Origin: a bacterium
GTDB lineage: Bacteria > Lernaellota > Lernaellaia > JACKCT01
Assembly (NCBI GenBank): GCA_019912885.1
Contig: JAIOHV010000230.1
Coordinates: 1-35,886, forward strand
Direction: 5' to 3'
Length of the DNA: 35,886 bases
Below are positions 11,335 through 26,034 of the stretch, piece by piece; the stretch's first letter is position 1, and every line of letters starts with the position of its first letter. Made by a program: the position numbers and the translations under genes. A model generated the notes under the pieces. The model saw nothing but the letters and a program-made list of their open reading frames with translations, had not been told where the DNA came from and ran no database searches.

Positions 11335-13029
11335 CTACTCCCGCACCGGCACCCAGACCCGCGCGACGCACGGCTCGCCGCGCTTGTTCACGCGCTCGAC
11401 GCGCACGAGGTAGTCGCCAGGTTGCGTGAAGACGTGCGTTTTTTGCGCGTAGCCGTCGCGCAGCGGCCAGTTGCCCGAGCGCGTCGTTTCGATGGGCGAC
11501 CCGTCGTCGAAGTCCCACGACTCCTCGCCGCCGCCGATGCCGAACACGCGTGCGATGAAACGCACCTTGTCGCCGGGGCGGATGTTTTTTGAAGGCGCGT
11601 GCGCGAGGTGGAGGTAGGTGTAGACGAGGTGCTCGGCGGCGAGGGCGCGCGATTTTGTGTCACGCCCAGGCGCGGAGAAGCGGAGGGATTGGAAACGGCT
11701 GCCGGGGCGAGCCAGATCCTTCGCTTCGCTCAGGATGACGGCCTGTGTAATCTGCGGATCCAGTTCCGCGACGATCTGCACGGTCGCGAAGTCGTACGCA
11801 ACATTCCCCTCGCTGTCCGTCACCTTGAGAACTTCCGTGTAGAACCCCGGCGCGTCGTACGTGCGCGTGACCGTCTCGCCGTTCGCGGTCGTCTCGTCGG
11901 TGAACTCCCAGTCGTACGACACAATCTCACCCGCGAACGATTCCGACTTGCCCGCGTCGAGCGTGATCGCGTCGCCGGCAAAGCCGTATTGGTGCGGGCG
12001 TGCGAGCGCAAGCAGCGGCGGGTTTTCCGCGGCGACGTAGCCCTCGCGCAGGTACGCGTACGACGGCTCCGTGCCCCACAGGCCGGACGGCTGCACGTCC
12101 TTGATCTCGAAATGCAGGTGCGCCCATCCGCCGGACGCGCCCTCGTTGCCCAGATACCCGATGCGCTCGCCCGCGTTCACGTACGAGCCCAGGCGCAGGT
12201 TCGGGTCGGCGCGTTCCAGGTGGCTGTAGCGGAAAAGCCGGCCGCGCACGTCCTCGATCCACACGATATCGACGCGCGCCTGCCCGAGATATGTCTGCGG
12301 CGCGGCGGGCGTGTCCTCGTATCCCGGCATCGTCTGGCCGCGAATGCCGACAACGCGCCCCGCGACGGTGGCGAGGATTTCGTCCCACCGGTCCATGCCG
12401 CCGAGGTCGACGCCGGCGTGGTAGTAGATCGCCTTCCAGAAGGGCAGATAGTCGTCGGTCGGCTCGTTATCGACCTGCGTCCGGTTGGCGAGCCAGCGCT
12501 GGTCCTTCACGGGATAGACAAACAGCGCATCGCCCGCGAGAAAACCGCTTGCAGGAAAAACGCGCACGCGCGCGTCCTTCACGAGCCCCCAGCGATCTTC
12601 GTTCGTGTTGACGTAGACGTCCCGCGCGACGGGGCAATCGACGCGCACGCCGCCCGCCTCGATGGGCAGCGAATAGTTGCCGCATTCGATCGCGATCGCT
12701 TGGCCATCGACCTCGATGTGCACGACGGATTTGCGCACGGCCGCCCGGATCGGATCGGCGTGCGACTCGACGTCGCGCAGCGCGATCGCCACGGTTTCGT
12801 CACCAGTGGTGACATCGGCCGTTTCGTCGATGAGCAGATCGACGACGTTGCCGCGCACCGTCGTTTCGCCGGCGTCGGTGTCGTCGTCGGCATCGTCGTC
12901 CGGCGCGCCGTCGTCGTCATCGTCATCGTCAGCGGCGAGGTCCGCGCCGTCGCCGTCGCCGTCGTCCTCATTGAAGACGCACGCCGCCAGCGCAAGCGCG
13001 ACGAGGCCGGCAAGAATCAGCAAGCGCAT
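11335..13029 (-). CDS. M23 (LytM) peptidase lipoprotein with PKD-like domains and Asp-rich linker
   Basis: A 564-residue exported lipoprotein. A lipobox gives Cys17 (LALAAC). An Asp-rich linker covers residues 21-54 (runs such as DDDDDDD). The M23 metallopeptidase domain has YYHAGVDLGG (His204, Asp208) and AHLHFEI (His304, His306), all Zn ligands present, so cleavage of peptidoglycan cross-links or pentaglycine-like peptides is likely. A PKD-like domain follows (about 350-422, with YDWEF and GFYTEVLKVTD), and a second Ig/PKD-like segment at about 475-560. Between them, residues 427-467 are encoded by dispersed repeats (motif VILSEAKDLA), so an insertion has been absorbed in frame. It is last in a four-gene minus-strand run, 16 bp after the biotinyl gene; the Shine-Dalgarno is weak. 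Confidence 0.88.
   Translation of the reverse strand: MRLLILAGLVALALAACVFNEDDGDGDGADLAADDDDDDDGAPDDDADDDTDAGETTVRGNVVDLLIDETADVTTGDETVAIALRDVESHADPIRAAVRKSVVHIEVDGQAIAIECGNYSLPIEAGGVRVDCPVARDVYVNTNEDRWGLVKDARVRVFPASGFLAGDALFVYPVKDQRWLANRTQVDNEPTDDYLPFWKAIYYHAGVDLGGMDRWDEILATVAGRVVGIRGQTMPGYEDTPAAPQTYLGQARVDIVWIEDVRGRLFRYSHLERADPNLRLGSYVNAGERIGYLGNEGASGGWAHLHFEIKDVQPSGLWGTEPSYAYLREGYVAAENPPLLALARPHQYGFAGDAITLDAGKSESFAGEIVSYDWEFTDETTANGETVTRTYDAPGFYTEVLKVTDSEGNVAYDFATVQIVAELDPQITQAVILSEAKDLARPGSRFQSLRFSAPGRDTKSRALAAEHLVYTYLHLAHAPSKNIRPGDKVRFIARVFGIGGGEESWDFDDGSPIETTRSGNWPLRDGYAQKTHVFTQPGDYLVRVERVNKRGEPCVARVWVPVRE
11701..11761. repeat. TCATCCTGAG-type repeat (inverted) inside the M23 gene
   Basis: GCCGGGGCGAGCCAGATCCT followed by TCGCTTCGCTCAGGATGACG (11701-11740). 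This matches 21641-21680 with one difference over the first 40 bases (CAGATCC against CGGATCC). An AATCTGCGGAT piece of another family adjoins at 11749-11759. Here both are translated as part of the M23 lipoprotein. Confidence 0.85.
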
Positions 13030-24255: not shown

Positions 24256-26034
24256 ATGCCAAATCGCGTCTCGTTCCTTGCCGCCTCGCTTGCTCTTCTT
24301 TTCGCCGTTCTCATCGCCGCGACCGCCATCGCGGATTCGGGTGACGCGACCTACAACATTCGCATCGATACGCGCGACCGCTTCGAACGAACGCGCGTTG
24401 TCGGTCTCGGCATCGCGATCGATCATGTCGATCTCGCGACGGGCGCGTCGTTCGCGCACGTCACGGACGCGGACGCGCGGCGCATCGAACGGCTTGGATT
24501 TGTCGTTACGCCGATCGCGGCGGCGGGCTTTCCGTTCAACATGCAGGATTACCACGACGAGTCGGAGGTGAACGCGGCGCTCGACCAGCTCGCGCTCGAT
24601 CACCCCGATATCGTGCATCTGTTCAGCATCGGCACGAGCGTCGAGGGGCGCGATCTCCGCGCGGTGCGCGTCTCGGACAACGCGGCGACGTACGAATCCG
24701 GCGAGCCGGCCGTGTTTTTCGGCGCGGAGTATCACGCGCGCGAATACGTCAGCGTGGAGGTGCCGCTCGATTTCCTGAATCGTCTCGTCACCGGCTACGG
24801 CGTGGACGAATTCGTCACGTATCTCATCAACGAGCGGGAAATCTACGTGGTGCCGCGCGTGAATCCGGACGGGCACACCTACGACGTCGAGGCCAATCAG
24901 GCGTGGTGGCGCAAGAACCGCGTCACGACGGGCAATCCGGTTTGCAAGGGTGTGGATTTGAATCGCAATTTCGCCTCGGGATTCGGCGGCGATCCGGGGT
25001 CGTCCGGCGATCCGTGCCAGGAGATCTACCGTGGGCCATCGGCGTTTTCCGAGCCGGAGACGGCGGCCGTGCGCGATTTTCTGCTCGCGTACGACAACGT
25101 GACGCTTTCGGTCGATCTGCACACGTACGGCGGGCTCATCCTGTACCCCTGGAGCAAGAGCTTCGAGGACATTATCGAGCCCGATCACACCATCCACCGC
25201 AACGCGGCGCTGCGCATGGCCGGCGAGTCGAACTACACCGCGCAGCCGTCTTCCGATCTTTATATCTCGGCCGGCACCGCGTGCGACTGGGCGTACGACG
25301 TCGCGGGCAAGGTCGCGTTCACCTACGAGATGACCGGAGAATTTGGTGGCGGCGATTTCTATCCGAACGACAACATCCTCCCACTGACGTTTAACAAGAT
25401 GTGGCCGGTCATGCTCTTTGCCACCGCCATTTCCGCCGATCCGTCGATGGTGCTGTCCGCGGACATCTGGCGGCAGAGCGCGACGGCCGACGGCGGCGAG
25501 GTCGTCACCACATGGTCACCGCTCGGCGACGACCCCGGCGGCACGTACAGCGTGTGGCGCATGGAAGGCGCCGCCGCGGATTACACGCAGGTTTCGCCGA
25601 ACCTCACCTCGGGCGAATTCGAATACGAATACATCGACCAGACCGTCGCGCCCGACACGACGTACACCTACCAGGTTCGTTTTTACGGCCCGAACGGAAA
25701 CGCCGAGTTCGATCCCATGATCGTGACGACCGACGCAACCGCGGACGACGACGCGGCCGATGACGACGCAGCGGACGACGACGCAGCCGACGACGACGCA
25801 TCCGACGACGACGCATCCGACGATGACGCGATGGACGACGATTTTCTCGACGACGATGTCAGCGACGACGATGTCAGCGACGACGACGTTTCGGATGACG
25901 ACGCATTTGACGATGACGCCGGCGCCGATGACGACGTGAATGATGACGACGAGGCGCCGGCGCCAGACATCGACGACGACGATGACGCCGCGAACGCGGA
26001 CGAGAGCGGCGATTCCGGAGGCTGCGGCTGTTGA
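24256..26034 (+). CDS. Secreted M14 zinc carboxypeptidase with FN3-like domain, Asp-rich repeat and SGGCGC terminus
   Basis: A 592-residue exported metallopeptidase. Signal peptide 1-26 (AATAIA/DSG). A catalytic M14 domain runs to ~390 with every key residue: YHAREYVSVE (His160, Glu163), VDLNRNF (Asn236, Arg237), VDLHTYGGLILYPW (His289), TYEMTGEF (Glu358). It should trim C-terminal residues from peptides outside the cell. An FN3/Ig-like domain follows (~400-492). Then an Asp-rich region (496-578) of pentapeptide units such as ADDDA, SDDDV, encoded by 15-bp DNA units. The chain ends SGGCGC with no transmembrane helix. The Asp repeats could bind Ca2+ or space the enzyme from the surface, and the Cys-bearing end could be an anchoring tag; both are inferences. 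Confidence 0.93.
   Translation: MPNRVSFLAASLALLFAVLIAATAIADSGDATYNIRIDTRDRFERTRVVGLGIAIDHVDLATGASFAHVTDADARRIERLGFVVTPIAAAGFPFNMQDYHDESEVNAALDQLALDHPDIVHLFSIGTSVEGRDLRAVRVSDNAATYESGEPAVFFGAEYHAREYVSVEVPLDFLNRLVTGYGVDEFVTYLINEREIYVVPRVNPDGHTYDVEANQAWWRKNRVTTGNPVCKGVDLNRNFASGFGGDPGSSGDPCQEIYRGPSAFSEPETAAVRDFLLAYDNVTLSVDLHTYGGLILYPWSKSFEDIIEPDHTIHRNAALRMAGESNYTAQPSSDLYISAGTACDWAYDVAGKVAFTYEMTGEFGGGDFYPNDNILPLTFNKMWPVMLFATAISADPSMVLSADIWRQSATADGGEVVTTWSPLGDDPGGTYSVWRMEGAAADYTQVSPNLTSGEFEYEYIDQTVAPDTTYTYQVRFYGPNGNAEFDPMIVTTDATADDDAADDDAADDDAADDDASDDDASDDDAMDDDFLDDDVSDDDVSDDDVSDDDAFDDDAGADDDVNDDDEAPAPDIDDDDDAANADESGDSGGCGC
25743..25924 (+). repeat. 15-bp tandem coding repeat (xDDDx units)
   Basis: GACGACGAC-centred units every 15 bp encode about 12 successive DDD pentapeptides in the M14 protein tail (ADDDA, then SDDDA, then SDDDV forms). 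Length polymorphism is likely. Confidence 0.9.

Follow-up and report, generated by a model that had tools for sequence, protein, structure and literature searches.

A carboxypeptidase with an acidic tail ending in cysteines

The window, by which we mean the whole stretch of 35,886 nucleotides that was analysed, encodes an exported zinc carboxypeptidase whose C-terminus is a long Asp-rich spacer closed by a short Gly/Cys end, and a lipoprotein that carries its Asp spacer at the N-terminus. The features are as follows.

24256-26034, forward strand: exported M14 zinc carboxypeptidase with a C-terminal Asp/Cys tag, 592 amino acids, ATG start (open reading frame, Pfam)
24256-24333, forward strand: Sec signal peptide (about MPNRVSFLAASLALLFAVLIAATAIA), without a lipobox (sequence reading, heuristic scan)
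24571-25383, forward strand: peptidase M14 domain, residues 106-376 (Pfam PF00246)
25744-25986, forward strand: Asp-rich spacer with 15 runs of at least three Asp (sequence)
26014-26034, forward strand: terminal SGGCGC and stop codon, the proposed anchor or sorting motif (sequence)
11335-13029, reverse strand: M23/PKD lipoprotein with an Asp spacer right behind the lipobox Cys (Pfam; N-terminus MRLLILAGLVALALAACVFNEDDGDGDGADLAADDDDDDDGAPDDD)

The carboxypeptidase matches PF00246 with E=3.2e-67 and 227.6 bits against a cutoff of 21.6. Its tail begins at residue 497 (nucleotide 25744) and comprises 96 residues, 50 of them Asp; the Asp runs are mostly spaced five residues apart, and the protein ends in DSGGCGC. 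The open reading frame stops at the Cys, with no hydrophobic segment and no basic tail beyond the cysteines, and an NCBIfam search of the protein returned no match, TIGR03901 included. The open reading frame, the Pfam match and the tail count bear out an earlier note on this DNA, which had described an M14 protein with an Asp repeat and a Gly/Cys end but neither helix nor basic tail. Its view that the layout is not GlyGly-CTERM or LPXTG also stands, given the missing helix and basic tail and the absence of an NCBIfam match. Its exclusion of MYXO-CTERM holds only in part: the helix and basic end are indeed missing, but the GCGC motif itself matches the MYXO-CTERM signature. The note had also placed the Asp run of the 11335-13029 protein behind a lipid-anchored Cys, and correctly so. 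The sequence at the lipobox reads ALAACVFNEDD...DDDDDDD, the protein is a lipoprotein with M23 and PKD domains, and the genome encodes many lipoproteins of this kind.

Occurrence of the tag in the genome and the phylum

The same ending is common in G000, the genome that contains the window (4.82 Mb, 99% complete). A DNA pattern for GCGC followed by a stop codon matched 52 times, against 9 for the reversed pattern, and 51 distinct GCGC-ending open reading frames were recovered, counting the one in the window; all 51 carry an Asp-rich tail before the end. Coding DNA for DDDxxDDD is more abundant still, with 2088 matches and none in the control. GCSC and CCG endings were also seen on tagged proteins, and a 1.07 Mb sample of the genome, made up partly of contigs picked by size among those with matches and not strictly random, contained CCGC, GCAC, CCGR, GCGN, GCGT, CCGS, CGCGV and SCGSCS. 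Since endings beyond GCGC exist, the genome must hold more than 51 tagged proteins; by extrapolation the number may be near 100. The codons for the Cys end differ between tags (GGCTGCGGCTGT, GGGTGCGGTTGC and others), so the end is not one copied DNA segment.

The 53 tagged proteins that were scanned belong to unrelated families: FG-GAP propellers, subtilases, M14 and M12 peptidases, trypsin-like peptidases, glycosidases, phosphoesterases, kelch and PKD. This domain set is typical of surface enzymes, and the tagged proteins whose start was available mostly have Sec signal peptides. We saw no NCBIfam model for the tag itself, the 53 proteins matching unrelated domain models among those listed; nor was there a model of the CTD of the type IX secretion system (T9SS) among the best 25 families listed for them, the tail being low-complexity and acidic. 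A helix hidden beyond the stop codon, reached by read-through or frameshift, found no support: a hydrophobic frame followed the stop in only 3, 1 and 1 of the 51 tags across the three frames, without any pattern. Nine of the tagged proteins have a Thr-rich linker of the TTTTTTVP type just before the Asp spacer, possibly a second spacer or an O-glycosylation region. G000 also encodes a small tagged family of about 240-265 amino acids with a TTD..ATDGFDW/Y motif (five sequences read); it includes several paralogues, some in tandem, and some have Asp tracts at both ends.

The genome belongs to the GTDB phylum FEN-1099, which is Ca. Lernaellota, alias Podoxiota (PMC13248872, PMC11382960). Our sample of this phylum is only seven genomes, from seven genera and three families, and includes the public MAGs fen_1099 (PMZC01) and FR_14 (JAOSJX01, 'FR-FEN-1099-1'). 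Our assignment of the window to the phylum depends on recognising these two: their loci lie in G011 and G012, where the pattern matches at the very same positions as in G004 and G002. Matches to the GCGC-stop pattern exceeded those to the reversed pattern in every one of them (52/9, 45/15, 48/12, 20/6, 62/10, 81/20 and 43/12), and a stricter pattern with GACGAC upstream matched 5 to 70 times per genome, overlapping matches counted. In Myxococcota, the phylum of Nannocystis, 17 of 284 genomes had one or two matches to the stricter pattern, which is the control level, and in other phyla 5 of 379 had a single one. Beyond chance matches, the short tag is thus absent from the 283-284 genomes of the Myxococcota draw and the 379 genomes of other phyla. 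In a DNA-pattern scan of named genomes, the matches listed were mostly chance and real only at the fen_1099 and FR_14 loci. Among the genomes searched, the short tag is restricted to the phylum Lernaellota. No published description of it was found in the literature searched, which did not include the 2022 paper naming Lernaellota.

Homologues of the M14 carboxypeptidase are present in all seven genomes. Those that reach a stop codon behind an Asp tail end in GCGC, GCSC, GGCS or ACCG; two others end without a tail, where truncation or frameshift is possible. The earlier note had suggested a surface-sorting or attachment scheme built on an acidic spacer and terminal cysteines, to be abandoned if no other exported protein in the genome had this ending or if the endings varied freely among orthologues. 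Neither turned out to be so. Besides the 51 GCGC open reading frames there are the CCGC, GCAC, GCSC and CCG variants, and the M14 endings, where the Asp tail could be read to its end, are confined to the four just given. The scheme is supported to that extent, with attachment itself remaining an inference.

Relation to N-terminal lipid anchors and to MYXO-CTERM

Asp tracts in the genome sample lie mostly at two places, before terminal cysteines or just behind an N-terminal lipobox Cys. Proteins with Asp before terminal cysteines have an ordinary signal peptide, and by a strict rule a lipobox was found in none of 26 C-tagged proteins against 43 of the 57 other proteins (Fisher p=9.6e-12). Of the 14 left over, several resemble lipoproteins and seem to have escaped the rule (e.g., APIACSCGDDD), and two are C-tagged proteins missed by the cutoff. 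Within this sample, the N-terminal lipid anchor and the C-terminal Cys tag exclude each other. In half of the N-terminal anchors (22/44), the lipidated Cys forms part of a C-x(1,2)-C followed by Asp, often as CSCG-DDDDDD, which looks like the mirror image of DDDDDD-GGCGC.

One family without a Pfam name has the lipobox-CSCG-Asp arrangement in front in four members and Asp-GCGC behind in three. Alignments within this family reach E-values down to 2e-17 and stop where the spacer begins. The same family thus occurs with spacer and anchor at either end, which indicates that the spacer travels with the anchor and that the terminal cysteines replace the lipid-anchored Cys. Among the members read were L202, L201 and L193 of the one kind and L070, L049 and L043 of the other; several members have a C-terminal AYWMGRY motif.

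The phylum also encodes full MYXO-CTERM proteins. TIGR03901 has one to four matches per genome in six of the seven, the window protein not among them, and 14 control genomes gave no match. Judged by their sequences, these are convincing, with GCGC, a helix and a basic end (for example DDDDDDDDGCGC-VIGGGADGAGLAFAMLALGLAALAVSLRKKR and DGGCGCRAASGEPPLSAVFVLGLLTIGVGFARR). Up to and including GCGC, the full MYXO-CTERM proteins and the short tag look alike, and subtilase-like and phosphoesterase-like domains, related by distant similarity, occur with either ending. The MYXO-CTERM signature has been described as 'a generic GCGC motif' whose Cys is predicted to be lipidated; the myxosortase MrtX was shown to cleave MYXO-CTERM proteins, and the type II secretion system (T2SS) carries them out (PMC11980579).

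An MrtX-like CPBP protease is found in exactly the six phylum genomes that have full MYXO-CTERM proteins, although all of its matches fall below the family's curated cutoff and the weakest of them is that of the window's own genome. The seventh genome, G001, is 99% complete and has neither a full MYXO-CTERM protein nor an MrtX-like protease, and 40 of its 41 GCGC-ending open reading frames carry an Asp tail. Because G001 keeps its tags without MrtX, the short tag likely needs no myxosortase, a conclusion that rests on this one genome. We rejected myxosortase as the general tag enzyme, since the occurrence of MrtX follows that of the full MYXO-CTERM proteins rather than that of the short tag. 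The processing enzyme with a matching distribution that the earlier note had suggested looking for was therefore not found. In G000 and G002, the MrtX-like genes have TPR-like neighbours on the opposite strand.

All seven phylum genomes encode GspD, the T2SS secretin, split over two contigs in the window's own. Every one of these genomes also has at least three paralogues of Lgt, the leading acyltransferase candidate for the MYXO-CTERM Cys (PMC11980579). The paralogues form orthogroups A, B and C, with mean identities of 46-51% within and 32-36% between groups, and the A copy of the window's own genome adjoins an LspA-like open reading frame. Lgt copy number is known to us for Lernaellota genomes only, without comparison to other phyla. 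Tag genes are not consistently found in the neighbourhoods of the paralogues (one case, on contig C133 of G000). The Lgt paralogues are thus not tied to the tag and remain only a lead as its enzyme. The Lgt-like paralogues, from contigs C9, C133 and C27 of G000 and their relatives, carry a GCC[YFH]G motif at the place where the usual Lgt motif is of the NFINGE type. A divergent Lgt-like protein on contig C8 of G003 has NFFNSE; of the copies read, it comes nearest to the classical motif.

A probable surface tag and its place among known systems

We are fairly confident that the tail serves in some way as an anchor or as a sorting tag. The fuller proposal is a portable C-terminal tag by which Ca. 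Lernaellota sort proteins to the surface and anchor them there, with cysteines that are most likely lipid-modified and with the T2SS as the route; this we regard as evenly balanced. The tagged protein would cross the inner membrane by Sec export, and signal peptidase I would remove its N-terminal peptide, as inferred from sequence. The folded enzyme would then stay at the end of a long, highly acidic, probably unstructured spacer, with the final Cys-Gly-Cys (or Cys-Cys-Gly-Cys), most likely lipid-modified, as the attachment point, and the T2SS would bring it to the cell surface. The acidic spacer could have an export role of its own, by analogy with lipoproteins of Bacteroidetes (PMC5080379) and with GspN-dependent T2SS lipoproteins (PMC12802150). 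The coding sequence itself stops at the GCGC signature, so there would be no helix to cut off, and by analogy the short tag would be equivalent to what remains of a MYXO-CTERM protein once it has been cleaved. Surface location, lipidation, the enzyme and the use of the T2SS are all inferred, and there are no localisation data. A lipid on the terminal cysteines, for which there are no mass data, is in our estimate an even call. The weak point is that the published model of C-terminal lipidation has a membrane helix to hold the substrate, and the tag has none, which leaves no evident way for a membrane acyltransferase to get to the cysteines. In addition, no enzyme is tied to the tag, and its endings (CGC, CCGC, CAC, CGT, CGN, CCGR) are looser than a strict enzyme signal. 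One tentative idea, on balance rather doubtful, is a helix-free C-terminal pathway in which the two end cysteines would be lipidated, possibly by one of the two extra conserved Lgt paralogues, to give the classical N-terminal lipoprotein in mirror image, and the Asp-Cys module would be recognised at either end of a protein for surface export.

The main rival, which we consider unlikely while taking it seriously, is a thiol anchor, in which the terminal cysteines are bonded by disulfide or thioether to a Cys-bearing surface component, perhaps the CxC of the lipoproteins, to give a cross-linked layer. Such chemistry needs no helix and so fits the missing membrane segment, and it would account for the pairing of the C-terminal cysteines (CGC, CCGC, CGCGC). 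The N-terminal lipoproteins are ambiguous here, as half of those with an Asp spacer have a matching second Cys near the first and the other half lack it. Disulfides would also be weak in reducing, anoxic habitats, an inference of ours, and the same GCGC occurs in the full MYXO-CTERM proteins of the phylum, where the Cys is tied to an intramembrane protease and lipidation is predicted (PMC11980579).

The tail might instead be no anchor at all, an explanation we find quite unlikely: it could act in secretion or keep the protein soluble, or it could bind metal or dimerise, with the acidic part aiding export or binding calcium and the cysteines joining two copies of the protein. Poly-Asp would bind cations, acidic residues beside the anchor Cys are lipoprotein export signals in Bacteroidetes (PMC5080379), and Gly/Ser or Asn/Asp motifs act for GspN-dependent T2SS lipoproteins in Acinetobacter (PMC12802150). 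This leaves unexplained, however, why lipid-anchored proteins in the sample never carry the Cys end and why spacer and anchor change ends jointly. We give almost no credence to low-complexity drift, in which GC-rich GAC repeats grow by tandem expansion and the Cys end would be a coincidence or the legacy of one duplicated ancestor. That the Asp repeats can expand and are common is plain from the DDDxxDDD count, but the Cys end is far above its reversed-pattern control, always lies beside an Asp tract, and has been kept, with varied codons, over seven genera, three families and many unrelated domains. Type I secretion signals are also C-terminal, but the proteins that bear them have no Sec signal peptide; this route was set aside because the tagged proteins have one.

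To our knowledge, the C-terminal tags handled by membrane enzymes (sortase, exosortase, archaeosortase, rhombosortase and myxosortase) depend on three elements: a motif, a membrane helix and a basic end. The surface tag we propose resembles the LPXTG/sortase and PEP-CTERM/exosortase systems in being C-terminal and common to many unrelated exported proteins, but these are tripartite (motif, helix, basic tail) and the tag has none of their parts. GlyGly-CTERM, the rhombosortase substrate, is likewise a C-terminal tag on exported, partly T2SS-dependent enzymes, but it requires a helix and a basic tail and has no Cys. Eukaryotic Rab GTPases end in CXC or CC at the extreme C-terminus, have no membrane helix and carry lipids; their prenylation machinery is cytosolic, so the likeness is an analogy only. 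N-terminal lipoproteins made by Lgt and LspA, including those with the LES of Bacteroidetes and those of the GspN/T2SS route, have a Cys beside an acidic stretch as the tag does, whereas the anchor of the tag is C-terminal, without a lipobox or a signal peptidase II site.

The closest comparison is with MYXO-CTERM (TIGR03901, NF040593; Myxococcota). Both have a Cys-containing GCGC signature near the C-terminus, a signal peptide, dozens of unrelated surface enzymes per genome and a T2SS in the genome. Unlike MYXO-CTERM, the tag has a long Asp repeat but no transmembrane helix and no Arg-rich end, the window protein does not match TIGR03901, and co-occurrence with MrtX fails, the tag being present in a genome without it; the Asp-GCGC-stop form is absent beyond chance from the Myxococcota searched. 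A helix-less MYXO-CTERM signature, carried by dozens of proteins in each genome and found in one genome without myxosortase, separates the Cys that is modified from the enzyme that cuts, and so bears on the open myxobacterial question of what modifies the MYXO-CTERM Cys. The tag also offers a criterion by which the surface proteome of an uncultured phylum can be predicted. It is not a member of MYXO-CTERM, because two of the three defining parts are missing; on the evidence of its sequence, it is probably a helix-less relative that works like the processed form.
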